A stretch of 25,848 nucleotides of DNA from a virus. Shown here piece by piece: positions 19,493 to 24,734 of this stretch. The notes beneath the pieces were generated by a model that saw only the letters and a program-made list of their open reading frames with translations, searched no databases and had not been told where the DNA came from. Every line of letters starts with the position of its first letter. Position 1 is the first letter of the stretch. Where the stretch lies: the IMG/VR virus record IMGVR_UViG_3300045431_000405, positions 1 to 25,848 of that record, one strand, 5' to 3'. Both the position numbers and the translations under genes were made by a program.

Positions 19493-20065
19493 TCAGTCTT
19501 CTGACGGCAGTGAAATGATCTGGCGCGAATCGCGGCCTAGGAGCGTGAATATGACCGCAGCCCTGTCGCCGTCAACCATCTCTTCGAAGATGACGTCGTA
19601 GTCGGCGGTCTGCCCCGCGACCCGCAGCTTGTCGCCACGCTTGAACCGAGCGGACGTCGGCCCGCCCTTTCCGTTGTCATTGCGGGCATGCTGCAACACG
19701 ACCAGGCCGTTGATCTCGCGCTTTTTCAGCTCTTCGATGAAGCGGCTCGGAATGGGGCTGGGCCGAGCGGCCTCGCCCGAACCGCGCATGATCACCTCGG
19801 TCACGCCCATGGTCGAAAACACGGCGCGCCAACGGTCCTGGTCCAGATCCATCTCGATGAACAGATAGCGCGGGATCATGGGGCGCGGACCGGGCGCCAC
19901 GCCGTTCCGGGCGCGCGCCCGAACGGGCGGCGGGACCATCGGCAGGTAGACGGTGAACCCCTGCTGCTCCAGCTGATAGCGGGCGTGCTTTTCCTGGTGG
20001 ACGTGGGTCACCACCACGTACCAGGCCCGACCCTGGCCGGAGGTTTGAACGGCGGACGCGGTCAC
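19493..20065 (-). CDS. NusG/RfaH-like transcription antitermination protein (phage-encoded)
   Basis: I select GTG 20065 (190 residues, MTASAVQTSG...) because GAAGGGG lies about 8 nt upstream and the extension to ATG 20125 is made of repeat-derived sequence. Residues 15-130 match a NusG N-terminal domain: AWYVVVTHVHQEKHARYQLE, QQGFTVYLP, PRPMIPRYLFIEMDLD, then FSTMGVTEVIMRGSGEAARP. The C-terminal 50 residues (FKRGDKLRVAG..., VIFTLLGRDSRQIISL) look like a KOW domain. NusG paralogues bind RNA polymerase and alter pausing or termination. Its placement at the end of the early block, just before a terminator and the late operon, suggests it may let polymerase read into late genes. This is a specialised paralogue, not the housekeeping nusG. 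Confidence 0.85.
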   Translation of the reverse strand: MTASAVQTSGQGRAWYVVVTHVHQEKHARYQLEQQGFTVYLPMVPPPVRARARNGVAPGPRPMIPRYLFIEMDLDQDRWRAVFSTMGVTEVIMRGSGEAARPSPIPSRFIEELKKREINGLVVLQHARNDNGKGGPTSARFKRGDKLRVAGQTADYDVIFEEMVDGDRAAVIFTLLGRDSRQIISLPSED

Positions 20066-20160
20066 TGGGAGAGCCCCTTCTCTGCTAAGCGGGGCGTCCC
20101 AAGCCGTACCATCGGGGCGTCCCATCTATTCTTTTGTTTAATCTCGTAAAAATAACTCAT
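20062..20160 (-). CDS. Possible 32-residue leader peptide coupled to the NusG-like gene
   Basis: A small frame from ATG 20160 encodes MSYFYEIKQKNRWDAPMVRL and ends LAEKGLSQ. Its TGA overlaps the GTG start of the NusG-like gene (GTGA), which would allow coupling. There is no clear Shine-Dalgarno, and much of it is encoded by the AT-rich stretch and repeat units, so it may be fortuitous. Confidence 0.25.
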   Translation of the reverse strand: MSYFYEIKQKNRWDAPMVRLGTPRLAEKGLSQ

Positions 20161-20332
20161 GGGACGCGCGGGACGCATGGGACGCACCTGTGGCGTCATG
20201 CGCCTACGCCTACGCACGCACACATGAGGCGGACTGAGCGTCCCAAGCGTCCCAGCGTCCCAACGCCCCCTCAAAGCCCCGTCAGTCATGGGTTTCCCCG
20301 TGGGACGCAGGGTGGGACGAATCATGGGACGC
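20094..20332. repeat. TGGGACGC octamer cluster in alternating orientation (iteron-like)
   Basis: About eleven copies of TGGGACGC or its complement, a few with one mismatch, lie in 240 bp. GCGTCCCA occurs at 20094 and 20117. Forward copies follow at 20160, 20169 (CGGGACGC) and 20178, spaced exactly 9 bp, then GCGTCCCA at 20238, 20247 and 20255, and forward copies at 20301, 20313 (ending GA) and 20325. The forward and reverse triplets can pair as a long hairpin or act as protein-binding arrays. An AT-rich stretch (20125-20160) lies within. The array spans the end of the helicase gene, the intergenic gap and the start region of the NusG-like gene. Confidence 0.85.
20125..20160. promoter_or_regulatory. 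AT-rich stretch within the repeat cluster (unwinding element or promoter region)
   Basis: Thirty-six bases with roughly three quarters A+T stand out in a GC-rich window (for example TATTCTTTTGTTTAATC and GTAAAAATAAC). Next to iteron-like repeats this could be a DNA unwinding element; it could equally be the promoter of the NusG-like gene, though no clean -35/-10 pair is seen. Confidence 0.4.
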
Positions 20333-22150
20333 GCCCCCGCTCCGGCCCCAACGCGGGGGGTCGAAGGCGGTCGCCTCCCTGGGGTCCGCCCCGACCGCGA
20401 CGGGCCTGTCCAACCAGGGGGTGAGGGGGACGCACAGCACGCGGCTCTGGTGCATGCCGAACCGCTTCGGCCCGTCGCCGGGCCTGGGCGCCACCGACGG
20501 GCCGAGGTCCGCCAGATGCTCCAGCACCCCGCGCCAGTTGGCGTACTGCGTCCCGTGCAGAGCCTTCTCGAGGGCCGGGTGATTGTTGGCGACCAACAGC
20601 CAAGGCCCTGGCCTGTCGGTCCCCGCATGCCCGTTCTCGACGATCAGGCCCCAGGCTTTCAGCACCTTTCCCGCCCGTGCGCCGGGGCTCTCCAACTCCT
20701 CCTGGATCAGCTCGCCTATGGTCAGCGCCCTGTCATGCCCCAGGTGGCCCGAGTTCAGCGCCCAGATGTATTGCAGACACCCCTGCCCAGGGTTCAGCGC
20801 CGAGGACCGTTCGTCCCGCGCCTGGGCCAGCCCCATCCAGATCCGCGCCTCTTCCCGCGCCTCCGCCTCGGTCAGGGCGGTGTCGAACAGCAGCAGCCTT
20901 CGCCCCGCCGCCAGGCTGGCGATCAGGTCCGCCGCCCGGGGCGCCTGTCGCGTCTCGACCAGGGCCGCCTTGATCGCGGCCACGTCGGCGCGGAACCGCT
21001 TGGCCTCCCTCAAGGCGCGCGCCAGCAGACCGGGCGACAGGGCCCGCGCCGCCTCTATGGCCGCTTCCAGGTCGTCGTCCGTCGTCCCCTTGCGGCCGTC
21101 CAGCCGCCCCATGTGGATCTCCAGCGTCCGCGTCGCCATGGCGTCCCCCAGGGGCACGGGAAAGATGCTGGCCAGATAGGCGCACCCGACGGCCGAGGTC
21201 GAAACCGTCCCGCCGTTGATCGAGCCCTTGCGCCCCGAACTCCCCTCCCCGGTCGCCATCCGGCGCAGCACTTCCAGCGCCTTCTCCACCGGCCCCGGCT
21301 GGCCGTCGGTGCTGGGCTCCGCCTCATCCAGGAACAGGCCTCTCGCCTCGGACGACAGGCTGTTTTTCAGCCCCGCGTCGGTGAAACTGTCCAACAGATC
21401 CCCGGCGTTGGCGCTGCCCGCCGCCTGCATCAGGCGCGACAGGGTCGTCTTGCCGGTCCCCGCCCCGCCGCTGACGTTGACCACGGGCCGGAACCGCGGC
21501 CAGGCGCCTAGCAATTGAACCCCCAGCCAGCCGAACAGGGCGTCGGCCTGGCTCAACCCCTCGGGGGCGCGGGGGTCCAGGGGGCTGAACGACCACAGGT
21601 TCAGCGCGGCCCTCAGGTTCTTGGCCTCCTTGACGGTGGCGGGTTTCGCCGGCCGCGCCGTCCGGGGCCGCAGCAGCCACAGAGGCCCGTCGATATCCTC
21701 GCGCAGGGCCGCCGCCACCGGACGCCAGTCGTCGGGCCCGAACGGCCAGCGCCCCACGGCGTCGCCGCAATGGACGATCGGCCCGTCGTCCCCGGCCCAG
21801 ACGCCGTATCCGCGTTCCTGACGGTTCTCGTCCCATACGCCGCGCTCGCGGCACTGCCGAACCAGCCACCGCGCCGCCTCCTGCAGCTGGATCTTGCCCT
21901 CTTCGTCGCGCCAGTTTCCGAGGAACATCGCCCCCGCCACGCTGGCGTAGATGTCGGTCCTCAGCATCTGGGCGATCCGCGCCGCCTTCTCGCGACGGAT
22001 CGAACCTTCGGGCAGGGCGAAGACGACGTCGCCCCCCAGGAAGCCCAGCGGGATCACCGGACAATCCTCGACCTTGGGATTGACGTAGGCGGTCGTCCCC
22101 TTGTCCGCCCCCTCGGCGTCGCTCTCTGAAATCACGAAATCGTCGCTCAC
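20282..22150 (-). CDS. Phage replicative helicase / P-loop ATPase
   Basis: The start is GTG 22150, overlapping the primase stop (GTGA); the product has 622 residues (MSDDFVISESDAEGADKG...). Residues 226-240 contain the Walker A VSGGAGTGKTTLSRL, and 271-279 the Walker B GLFLDEAEP, with a later sensor-like stretch around TSAVGCAYLASIFPVPLGDA. The N-terminal 200 residues have no motif I recognise. The organisation fits phage/plasmid primase-associated helicases that act with a separate TOPRIM primase, as here. The final 20 residues (SHDSSHPASHGETHD) are encoded by copies of the TGGGACGC repeat, so the C-terminus has been shaped by that element. Confidence 0.8.
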   Translation of the reverse strand: MSDDFVISESDAEGADKGTTAYVNPKVEDCPVIPLGFLGGDVVFALPEGSIRREKAARIAQMLRTDIYASVAGAMFLGNWRDEEGKIQLQEAARWLVRQCRERGVWDENRQERGYGVWAGDDGPIVHCGDAVGRWPFGPDDWRPVAAALREDIDGPLWLLRPRTARPAKPATVKEAKNLRAALNLWSFSPLDPRAPEGLSQADALFGWLGVQLLGAWPRFRPVVNVSGGAGTGKTTLSRLMQAAGSANAGDLLDSFTDAGLKNSLSSEARGLFLDEAEPSTDGQPGPVEKALEVLRRMATGEGSSGRKGSINGGTVSTSAVGCAYLASIFPVPLGDAMATRTLEIHMGRLDGRKGTTDDDLEAAIEAARALSPGLLARALREAKRFRADVAAIKAALVETRQAPRAADLIASLAAGRRLLLFDTALTEAEAREEARIWMGLAQARDERSSALNPGQGCLQYIWALNSGHLGHDRALTIGELIQEELESPGARAGKVLKAWGLIVENGHAGTDRPGPWLLVANNHPALEKALHGTQYANWRGVLEHLADLGPSVAPRPGDGPKRFGMHQSRVLCVPLTPWLDRPVAVGADPREATAFDPPRWGRSGGASHDSSHPASHGETHD

Positions 22151-23451
22151 GCCGCAGCCTCGTCCCCGGCGGCTTCGGCCGCTCTGATCATGTCGTTGAA
22201 GTCCAGACCCGGCGGCGGGGCGCTGGCCCTCACCTCGGTCTCCGATCCCGGCGCCAGCCGCCGCTTCCACGCCGCGACGGCCAGCCGTCCGCACACCCGC
22301 GCTCGCGCGGCGGCCTCGCGCCGCACGCCGATCGCGCGGCTGCGCCCCACCCGGTTCTTGCCGCTGCGCCCCTGGACGGTGATCGGGCTCATGTCGCTGT
22401 CGCAGGCGATGTCCACGACGCCCCAGGGGGCGCGGGGGTCCTCTGGCCAGGTGAAGGGCGGCCGCATCGGGTCGCCGGTCCCGCCCCAGACGTCGACCAA
22501 CACCCCTTCGCCGTCCGTCAGCTCATAGCCCTGCAGCGAATCCAGCGACCCGGCCGCCACAGCCCGCACCGGCAGGCTCAGATCCCCGGCCAGCATCATG
22601 GCCCGGCTCAAGGCGTTCTCCTGCCCTTCCGCCACGGCCAGCGGCCCCGCCGCGTCCGGACGGCTCAGCCAATATCCGCCGCGCAGCACATAGCCCTCGA
22701 TCGGCTCGCCCCGCACCTGGACCGGCGGTCCATACCCCCCGTCGCGGCGGGCCGACAGGAACAGGCCCTGCGGCCCCCACATCCGCTTCGCCGGCGCCCG
22801 GTGCGTCTTGCTGCGGCCGTTGGGGCTCAGATAGGTCGCGTGGATCCCGCCGGTCGGCCCCAGCTCGGTCATGCAGATGTTGATCATGGCCGGCAGGCGA
22901 ATCCCCGCCTCCGGATCCCCGCTGTGATAGGCCGCCGGGTGAAACCTCAGGATCTTCAGCGCCCGCGCCAGCACCGGCCCCCGGATCGCCCGCGCCTCCA
23001 GGTATGTCTGAACCAGGGTGCCTTCAGACGGCCCCGCCTCGCGCCACAGCCGCGCCGCCAGCTCGGCCTTCCACGCCGCATCGGCCATGGCCTGGCGCTC
23101 GCGCGCCTCGGCCGCCTGCGCACGCCGTTCGCGCGATTCCTCGGTCTCTTCCGCCACGATCCCGCCGACCAGGCGCAGCGCCGCATCGCGCACCGTCTCA
23201 TCGCCCCGGCCGAACAGCCGGTGCTCCAGATCCACCACGTCCCCGCCGCGCGGGTCGCAGCTCCAGCACTTCCACTTCCGGCCGTCGCCGAACACGGCGA
23301 AGGGCGCAGCCTTGCTCTTGGACCCGCAATCCTTCAGCGGACACACGCCGCGCCAGCCGGCGCCGACCTTGACCAGCTTCACCCGCCGCCCCGCCACATC
23401 CTCGCAGCGGACGCGGTCGCGGGCCTGGTCGAACAGACGGTCGTCGGTCAT
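22147..23451 (-). CDS. DNA primase with zinc finger and TOPRIM domain
   Basis: ATG 23451 is chosen (434 residues, MTDDRLFDQARDRVRCEDVA...) as it has GAGGGG upstream; a longer frame from 23550 has no support. A CHC2-like zinc-binding region uses Cys37 (CPLKDC with Cys42) and Cys62/Cys65 (KCWSC). The TOPRIM domain is visible as PLAVAEGQENALS with Glu275 and VVDIACDSDMS with Asp347/351/353, plus the intervening AVAAGSLDSL. Residues 100-135 form an Arg/Glu/Ala-rich helix linking the two. It would synthesise primers for phage replication together with the downstream helicase, whose GTG start overlaps its TGA. Confidence 0.87.
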   Translation of the reverse strand: MTDDRLFDQARDRVRCEDVAGRRVKLVKVGAGWRGVCPLKDCGSKSKAAPFAVFGDGRKWKCWSCDPRGGDVVDLEHRLFGRGDETVRDAALRLVGGIVAEETEESRERRAQAAEARERQAMADAAWKAELAARLWREAGPSEGTLVQTYLEARAIRGPVLARALKILRFHPAAYHSGDPEAGIRLPAMINICMTELGPTGGIHATYLSPNGRSKTHRAPAKRMWGPQGLFLSARRDGGYGPPVQVRGEPIEGYVLRGGYWLSRPDAAGPLAVAEGQENALSRAMMLAGDLSLPVRAVAAGSLDSLQGYELTDGEGVLVDVWGGTGDPMRPPFTWPEDPRAPWGVVDIACDSDMSPITVQGRSGKNRVGRSRAIGVRREAAARARVCGRLAVAAWKRRLAPGSETEVRASAPPPGLDFNDMIRAAEAAGDEAAA

Positions 23452-23482: not shown

Positions 23483-23761
23483 TCATGTCCGCCCCCGGAC
23501 GAAGCCAGCATTCGCCCGCTGCTCGCGGCTGTCAGCCCAGTTGTTGGCAACGTCTCGCGAGATGTCCTTGCTGACGGTCTCTATCAAGCAGCGAGCGGCG
23601 GCCTGATCGTCGCTGACGAACGCAACGATCGACGCCAAATGCATGATTGATGCGCCGAGGACATCTTCAACTGAATGCCCGGCACAGACCATCTGCATTT
23701 GGTTGTGGAGCTGCACACTCGGCGGCGCCGCAGCGAGCGCTTCAGGCGTGACCTTTTCCAT
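23483..23761 (-). CDS. Unknown small phage protein
   Basis: The frame begins at ATG 23761, which overlaps the stop of the upstream gene (TGATG), and encodes 92 residues: MEKVTPEALAAAPPSVQLHN, then QMQMVCAGHSVEDVLGASIM, LASIVAFVSDDQAAARCLIE and a polar end NAGFVRGRT. It looks like a compact all-alpha protein with no membrane segment. Codon use here is slightly less GC-biased than in the neighbours. I do not recognise the family; its place between a small winged-helix-like gene and the primase suggests an accessory role in replication or early regulation. Confidence 0.6.
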   Translation of the reverse strand: MEKVTPEALAAAPPSVQLHNQMQMVCAGHSVEDVLGASIMHLASIVAFVSDDQAAARCLIETVSKDISRDVANNWADSREQRANAGFVRGRT

Positions 23762-24021
23762 CAAACCCGCCCCTTCAGCCGCGCCAGCATCTTCCGGCCC
23801 GCCTCGGTCGCCCGATACCGGCTGCCGCCCAGCACGTCGCCGGCAGGCGCCGGCGCCCGCTCCAGCAGACCGAACTGCGCCAGCGCGCCCAGCGTGCCGC
23901 CCGGCGTCATCGGCGTCGCTGTCGTCCCGGCCTCGCCGGCGTCGCCGACGATCTTCAGCACCTTCGCCTTGAACGGCGTCAGGTCCTGCCCCGGCGCAAT
24001 TTTGATAGGCCACTTCGCCAT
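23761..24021 (-). CDS. Small winged-helix-like protein of unknown function
   Basis: ATG 24021 overlaps the methyltransferase stop (TGATG). The 86-residue product (MAKWPIKIAPGQDLTPFKAK...) has a helix-helix-helix-wing pattern: PFKAKVLKIVGDAG, GGTLGALAQFGLLERAPAP, then GSRYRATEAGRKMLARLKGR. The 'L-x-x-x-GLLER...YRATEAGRKML' pattern is typical of winged-helix DNA-binding proteins (marR/PadR-like end), but the region is short. A role as a small regulator is inferred from fold pattern only. Confidence 0.55.
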   Translation of the reverse strand: MAKWPIKIAPGQDLTPFKAKVLKIVGDAGEAGTTATPMTPGGTLGALAQFGLLERAPAPAGDVLGGSRYRATEAGRKMLARLKGRV

Positions 24022-24734
24022 CAACCCGGCCGCTCCGCCAACAGCTCCGACTGTCGCGGATCCTTCTCGACGACGCCGAACCGAGCCGCGTCGTCAGCCT
24101 TCGTCAGCCGCGCCTTCGTCCCTGGCGCGATGAACGACAGGCCGGGACCGGACCCGTAGCCGTCCACCCCCGGCTTCAGCCAGATGAACCAGGCATAGGC
24201 CGTCGCGCTGGACGCGGTCGGATACCAACGCCCCTTCACCATCGGCACGCGCTCGGCGAACGGCGCACAGGCGTGCAGCGGCAGTTCGTGGAACAGCCGA
24301 TACCGCCCCGCCCCTTCCAGGAACTGCAGGCGCAGCAGCATGGCGACGCCGCGTCGCGCCCGCCTCCAGGCTTGGCGCACAAAGGCCTCGCCCTTCACGA
24401 ACGGCGGGTTGGTGATGATCCAGTCGGGCCGGATGGCCGGCGCGAACGTCGGGTCCAGAAAATCGCCCAGCAGGAACCGGGGCGACATCGCGCCGCCGTG
24501 GTCATGGATGTCGCTGATGCTGACTTCGGCGAAATAGTCTGACAGGCCCCAGGCCATATGACCGCCGCCCGCCGCCGGCTCCCAGCACGTCTGCGCCAAG
24601 GGATCGAGACGCCGCACGATCTCCCCTCCGGCCCGCGCGGCCCAGGGCGGCGTGGGGAAATAATCCAGGCTGTCGGGGTCGATGGGCGCGCGCTGCGCCA
24701 TGACGGCGGTGAAGCCGGCGGGACGCTCGCTCAT
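24021..24734 (-). CDS. Phage DNA N6-adenine methyltransferase-like protein
   Basis: This 237-residue protein starts MSERPAGFTAVMAQRAPIDP. It has an N-terminal DYFPTPPWAA element common in phage methyltransferases, SAM-binding motif I-like EPAAGGGHMAWGL at 52-64, SISDIHDHG (motif II acidic position), and catalytic motif IV NPPF at 109-112 preceded by DWIIT. No separate target-recognition domain is evident. Such solitary enzymes methylate adenine in phage DNA, protecting it from restriction or altering regulation; no cognate restriction gene is adjacent. The ATG overlaps the stop of the upstream gene by 4 nt (ATGA). Confidence 0.82.
   Translation of the reverse strand: MSERPAGFTAVMAQRAPIDPDSLDYFPTPPWAARAGGEIVRRLDPLAQTCWEPAAGGGHMAWGLSDYFAEVSISDIHDHGGAMSPRFLLGDFLDPTFAPAIRPDWIITNPPFVKGEAFVRQAWRRARRGVAMLLRLQFLEGAGRYRLFHELPLHACAPFAERVPMVKGRWYPTASSATAYAWFIWLKPGVDGYGSGPGLSFIAPGTKARLTKADDAARFGVVEKDPRQSELLAERPG

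Follow-up and report, generated by a model that had tools for sequence, protein, structure and literature searches.

A predicted replication origin of alternating iteron triplets at the 3′ end of a phage helicase gene

Through their C-terminal domain, the Rep helicases of SaPIs recognise an origin whose short iterons lie directly past the end of the helicase gene itself, and for the SCCmec helicase Cch2 specific iteron binding by the C-terminal domain has been shown biochemically (PMC7581432). The origins of PICIs, tested on plasmids, lie immediately 3′ of the rep/initiator gene and consist of two iteron sets that flank an A+T-rich region (PMC6092414), an organisation that the PICI authors called unique to PICIs. 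In the satellite phage P4, the winged helix of the primase–helicase alpha binds origin repeats, and for pRN1 and phage BIP-1 stem-loop origins have been proposed 3′ of the replication gene (PMC4234260). The array described here has, in our estimate, a probability of roughly 0.87 of being a replication origin of this PICI/SaPI/P4 kind, belonging to a tailed phage or prophage and read by its own SF3/D5-like helicase.

The array lies in a virus contig of 25,848 bases, the whole of which is referred to below as the window. Gene order around it, all on the minus strand, is primase, helicase, array, NusG-like protein, terminase small and large subunits, and portal (Table 1). Sixteen exact TGGGACG heptamers occur in the 25.8-kb window, and ten of them fall within the 239 bp at 20094–20332, where the remainder of the window predicts 0.056 (Poisson P ~8e-20). 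The array is thus confirmed as non-chance; the heptamer is rare elsewhere in the window, and the octamer is not a dispersed repeat within this contig, as the reading made earlier from the sequence alone (hereafter the sequence-only reading) had allowed that it might be. That reading described about eleven octamers in sets of two or three. The array itself is real, but the count becomes twelve, because CGGGACGC at 20169 and a degenerate TGGTACG at 20105–20111 also belong to it; the twelve sites are ten exact TGGGACG, one CGGGACG and the degenerate copy. The last of these is the middle member of the first triplet and is clearer in the relatives L014 and L109, where it reads GGGACA. On the plus strand the sites fall most naturally into four triplets that alternate in strand, (- - -)(+ + +)(- - -)(+ + +), with sites spaced at 8–9 bp in the inner triplets and at 10–13 bp in the outer ones. 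The 34 bp between the first two triplets are richer in A+T than any other 34 bp of the record (76%, vs 69% G+C overall); the AT-rich stretch had first been given as 36 bp.

Table 1. Features of the array and the adjoining genes (positions in the window).
Feature	Position	Strand	Details
NusG-like protein	19493–20065	-	PF02357, E 1.5e-19
Iteron triplet D (outer)	20094–20124	-	GCGTCCCA 20094–20101; degenerate CGTACCA 20105–20111; GCGTCCCA 20117–20124
A+T-rich stretch, candidate DNA unwinding element	20126–20159		76% A+T
Iteron triplet C (inner)	20160–20185	+	TGGGACGC 20160; CGGGACGC 20169; TGGGACGC 20178; exact 9-bp spacing
Block ATGGGACGCACCTGTGGCGTC	20177–20197	+	Third iteron of triplet C and flank
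52-bp core between facing triplets	20186–20237		Purine/pyrimidine-alternating run CATGTGTGCGTGCGTA on - strand
Iteron triplet B (inner)	20238–20262	-	GCGTCCCA at 20238, 20247 and 20255; spacing 9 and 8 bp
Iteron triplet A (outer)	20301–20332	+	TGGGACGC 20301; TGGGACGA 20313; TGGGACGC 20325; 12-bp spacing
SF3/D5-like helicase, presumed initiator, 622 aa	20282–22150	-	phrog_21086 and phrog_35358 DNA primase; Walker A GGAGTGKTT
DnaG-type primase (CHC2 zinc ribbon and DUF7146)	22147–23451	-	Profile matches

The helicase gene runs from GTG 22150, a start that overlaps the primase stop, to 20282; triplet A is therefore coding, and the array does invade the 3′ end of the helicase gene, as had been remarked from the sequence. 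From these last codons it extends ~190 bp past the stop, immediately 3′ of the initiator gene as in PICIs and SaPIs, and finishes ahead of the NusG-like start, GTG 20065, a codon conserved across all aligned relatives. An ATG at 20125, inside the array, was rejected as that start, as it is not conserved among the aligned relatives. A Pfam search of the helicase returned no family match, and a close relative among isolated phages was not found, the best being at ~25–29% identity. Its AlphaFold2 model is of moderate confidence (mean pLDDT 67), and Foldseek against the PDB matches the model to the NrS-1 helicase (CTR), poxvirus D5/E5 and SaPI PriRep1 (7pds) at low global TM-scores of ~0.3, so that the helicase family is assigned by fold class only. 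The C-terminus is predicted to adopt an H-H-H-E-E arrangement of winged-helix type (~residues 455–577, pLDDT ~80).

The locus resembles PICI and SaPI origins in that the array is immediately 3′ of an initiator helicase and its iteron sets surround an A+T-rich stretch (PMC6092414, PMC7581432), and its presumed initiator may be related by fold to that of SaPIs (PriRep1). The minus triplet at 20094–20124 and the plus triplet at 20160–20185 flank the A+T-rich region in the PICI manner, and two further triplets extend the array. It differs from both in having four alternating triplets rather than two sets, in its iteron TGGGACG, in a separate DnaG-type primase, and in its own terminase and portal genes. 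With terminase large subunit and portal genes of its own, the record is classed as a phage and not as a PICI, and it does not have the character of a satellite exploiting the structural and packaging genes of a helper. An organisation of the PICI kind is present here in phages that encode terminase and portal themselves, and so outside PICIs. As at the putative Cch2 origin, the iterons lie directly downstream of the helicase gene (PMC7581432), although the Cch2 site has three 5-nt AAGTG iterons and the present array twelve 7-nt sites. With P4 alpha and its ori the locus shares a winged-helix helicase (here predicted) at repeats and a bacterial-type (Toprim) primase (PMC4234260), whereas primase and helicase are separate proteins here, and iteron sequence and layout differ. 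As in pRN1 and BIP-1, the gene for an SF3 helicase with a winged helix (here predicted) is followed by a long inverted repeat (PMC4234260); unlike pRN1, which needs an intact stem-loop and is said to be without iterons, the inverted repeat here consists of iterons and shows no compensatory change.

Absence from close relatives had been named in advance as an observation that would speak against a functional array; all helicase relatives at 62–97% identity carry it. In these relatives the iteron columns are 86% identical, vs 60% elsewhere in the region, and the A+T-rich stretch remains rich in A+T without being conserved in sequence. Down to 62% helicase identity, no nearly invariant block is longer than 20177–20197, in which a single base differs, in L109. 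In addition, TGTGGCGTC recurs in the cores of L138 and L165, so that there may be a second, non-iteron site.

The array is tied to the helicase and not to NusG. Twenty-two loci were collected by helicase homology alone, and 18 of them have 6–9 TGGGAC copies adjoining the stop codon, against 0.07–0.6 expected; among the remaining four, one is truncated at the stop and three lack the TGGGAC word. Independent cases are fewer than these numbers suggest, since 12 of the 22 loci fall in the close clade that includes the window; in three of the 18 (L355, L356, L360) the locus is without a NusG-like gene. Searching instead for facing TGGGAC pairs at 9-bp spacing yielded 35 loci; many of the sampled loci are near-duplicates. 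The helicase gene ends no more than 450 bp from the array in 26 of these 35, in 34 of 50 loci with the word CAGGGT, and in 51 of 56 loci of a third sample, mostly of one VapE family, while in the pattern samples the helicase 5′ end is never within that distance. Across many such genes the array is usually within 200 bp of the 3′ end of the initiator helicase. The helicases beside TGGGAC arrays are of several kinds (phrog_21086, VapE-like, D5_N/DUF5906, PrimPol+DUF5906, PrimPol+AAA_25), but the recurrence of TGGGAC beside unrelated helicases is partly ascertainment, as that word was the one searched and many words exist. Some arrays (L145, L147, L157, L159, L167, L174) have no adjoining helicase, and those in L145, L147, L167, L174, L179 and L215 lie near terL or between early and late genes, distant from a helicase. 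Raw pattern counts mislead, since coding repeats of TGGGACGCC match the pattern, and some of the matches proved to be these rather than arrays; coding-like 9-bp tandem repeats of TGGGACGCC (Ala-Trp-Asp-Ala type) mimic the array in this way in L020, L021, L074, L104 and L125. The densest array seen, ~15 TGGGAC copies, is in L163 (1–1900), where it follows a 531-aa ORF without a Pfam match that may be an unrecognised initiator.

Among more distant helicase homologues the word changes and the layout stays. At 25–35% helicase identity, GTAAGA, GGGAAC or GTTAC takes the place of TGGGAC in two viral contigs (L362, L363) and three alphaproteobacterial chromosomes (L365, L366, L369). Minus and plus clusters come first, followed by a purine/pyrimidine-alternating core (e.g., GTGCGTGCGTGCG) and a facing cluster on the minus strand; ~35 bp of A+T-rich sequence then lead to the last cluster, on the plus strand. 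In L365, L366 and L369, including the GTTAC loci, this layout was read by eye, and cluster sizes vary. Such a combination, the same layout with other iterons, is as expected if the initiator reads the iterons. The homologue in L367 retains TGGGAC, and those in L364 and L368 have no array at the 3′ end. CAGGGT is a further iteron class, located 3′ of the genes for VapE and D5 helicases; some of its loci have six sites on each strand. It had been taken, as the reversed pattern, for a neutral control, but its scan matched these real iterons and is therefore unusable as a background rate. No simple match was found between residues of the helicase C-terminal winged helix and the iteron word, and similar helicase C-termini accompany both TGGGAC and CAGGGT.

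Repeat arrays of other settings were also encountered. In the phages L167, L174, L179, L212 and L215, CAGGGT arrays surround a core of long T/A runs near the terminase gene or among early genes, and in two of the five the helicase is 5–6 kb away. Within L336–L338, the isolates PS3 and AcaML1 have iterated words of their own after the primase (GGGGTGACC; GACGGGTCT around CACGCGCGCGCG), and phage Haddon has scattered GTCCCA copies further downstream. The matches listed from the scan of genome contigs are mostly dispersed TATGGGAC repeats of PVC and Acidobacteria genomes, which were set aside as a different phenomenon. Among the matches listed, many PVC-group and Acidobacteria genomes (L216–L335) have dispersed, intergenic, palindromic TATGGGACNNATGGGAC arrays of 9-bp period, often several per contig and mostly unlinked to a recognised helicase. 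A short TGGGACAGA palindrome (++/--) occurs in Roseovarius-type prophages without an adjacent helicase (L144, L157, L159, L161, L293); it adjoins a ParB-like gene and a QueC-containing gene pair resembling QatB/QatC of the Qat defence system.

Three other explanations were weighed, and all three fit worse than an origin. The sequence-only reading had considered a nut/put-like RNA, in which the facing triplets form a hairpin in the transcript, recruit the NusG-like protein and antiterminate the late genes. The minus-strand transcript of 20155–20266 does fold very stably (z -5.6), and in the closest relatives the NusG gene directly follows the array, but strong folding is expected of any facing repeats by construction, and the array occurs without NusG in the three helicase relatives named above and beside unrelated helicases. 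Across 14 sequences, iteron variants are unmatched in the partner arm 24 times and matched 4 times; nine arm pairs differ in spacing, and pairing in the ten flanking bases is close to the level of chance. These results argue against selection for an RNA hairpin, though a minor role for one is compatible with them. An Rfam scan of the region gave no family match, and the pattern expected of antitermination, an array travelling with a NusG-like gene and a conserved hairpin, was not found. We consider this explanation very improbable.

An operator array for a small regulator (the winged-helix-like protein at 23761–24024 or the two-domain protein at 24.7–25.7 kb), also proposed earlier, would here govern expression of NusG and the late genes. 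Iterated short sites ahead of a gene suit a regulator too, and an initiator could conceivably autoregulate from its iterons; yet the array accompanies the helicase across phages that differ in regulators and downstream genes, and the layout that recurs, A+T-rich flank included, resembles that of an origin. Scans of the region found no sigma-70-like promoter (the only type scanned for) and no terminator. The operator explanation, too, is highly unlikely. It is natural to consider, in addition, a terminase recognition or packaging (cosB-like) site, given that the small and large terminase genes follow, 0.8–3.6 kb downstream of the array, and that arrays L145, L179 and L215 are near terL without a nearby helicase. 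With a terminase gene 1–2 kb further on in many phages, position alone cannot separate an origin from a packaging site. However, among loci with sufficient flank, terL is no further than 4 kb away in 11 of 14 with TGGGAC but in only 7 of 13 with CAGGGT; a third sample, with short flanks, has it in 1 of 15. Helicase adjacency is the tighter and more general association. The isolates AcaML1 and Marinobacter PS3 have their own repeats after the primase and no adjoining terminase, the iteron word shifts with helicase divergence, and the same word occurs with terminases of different families. A packaging role is, on this evidence, very unlikely.

The origin of replication that the sequence-only reading had suggested, with iterons and an unwinding element after the primase and helicase genes, is well supported by layout, conservation and the link to the helicase. 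As an origin, the array would operate as follows. The helicase, encoded immediately upstream, would use its C-terminal winged-helix domain to bind the twelve TGGGACG iterons, and the two facing inner triplets and two outer triplets would seat helicase rings on either side of the 52-bp core. Next to the third triplet (in the sense of the helicase gene), the 34 A+T-rich bp would melt, the rings would load onto the single strands, the adjacent DnaG-type primase would prime, and forks would depart. Twelve sites would match two hexamers. It is possible, though we hold this only tentatively, that the four-by-three layout provides a general scaffold of twelve sites on which two initiator hexamers, with six winged helices each, sit head to head, and that this layout stays constant while the word changes with the helicase.

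If this scaffold reading is true, self-encoded phage origins that can be read from sequence would form a large family extending beyond PICIs. To our knowledge, the replication origin of most phages is unknown. The layout of alternating triplets, purine/pyrimidine-alternating core and A+T-rich flank at the 3′ end of an initiator gene may make origins predictable in many uncharacterised phages, and the loci supply many natural helicase–iteron pairs for studying DNA recognition by self-loading helicases.
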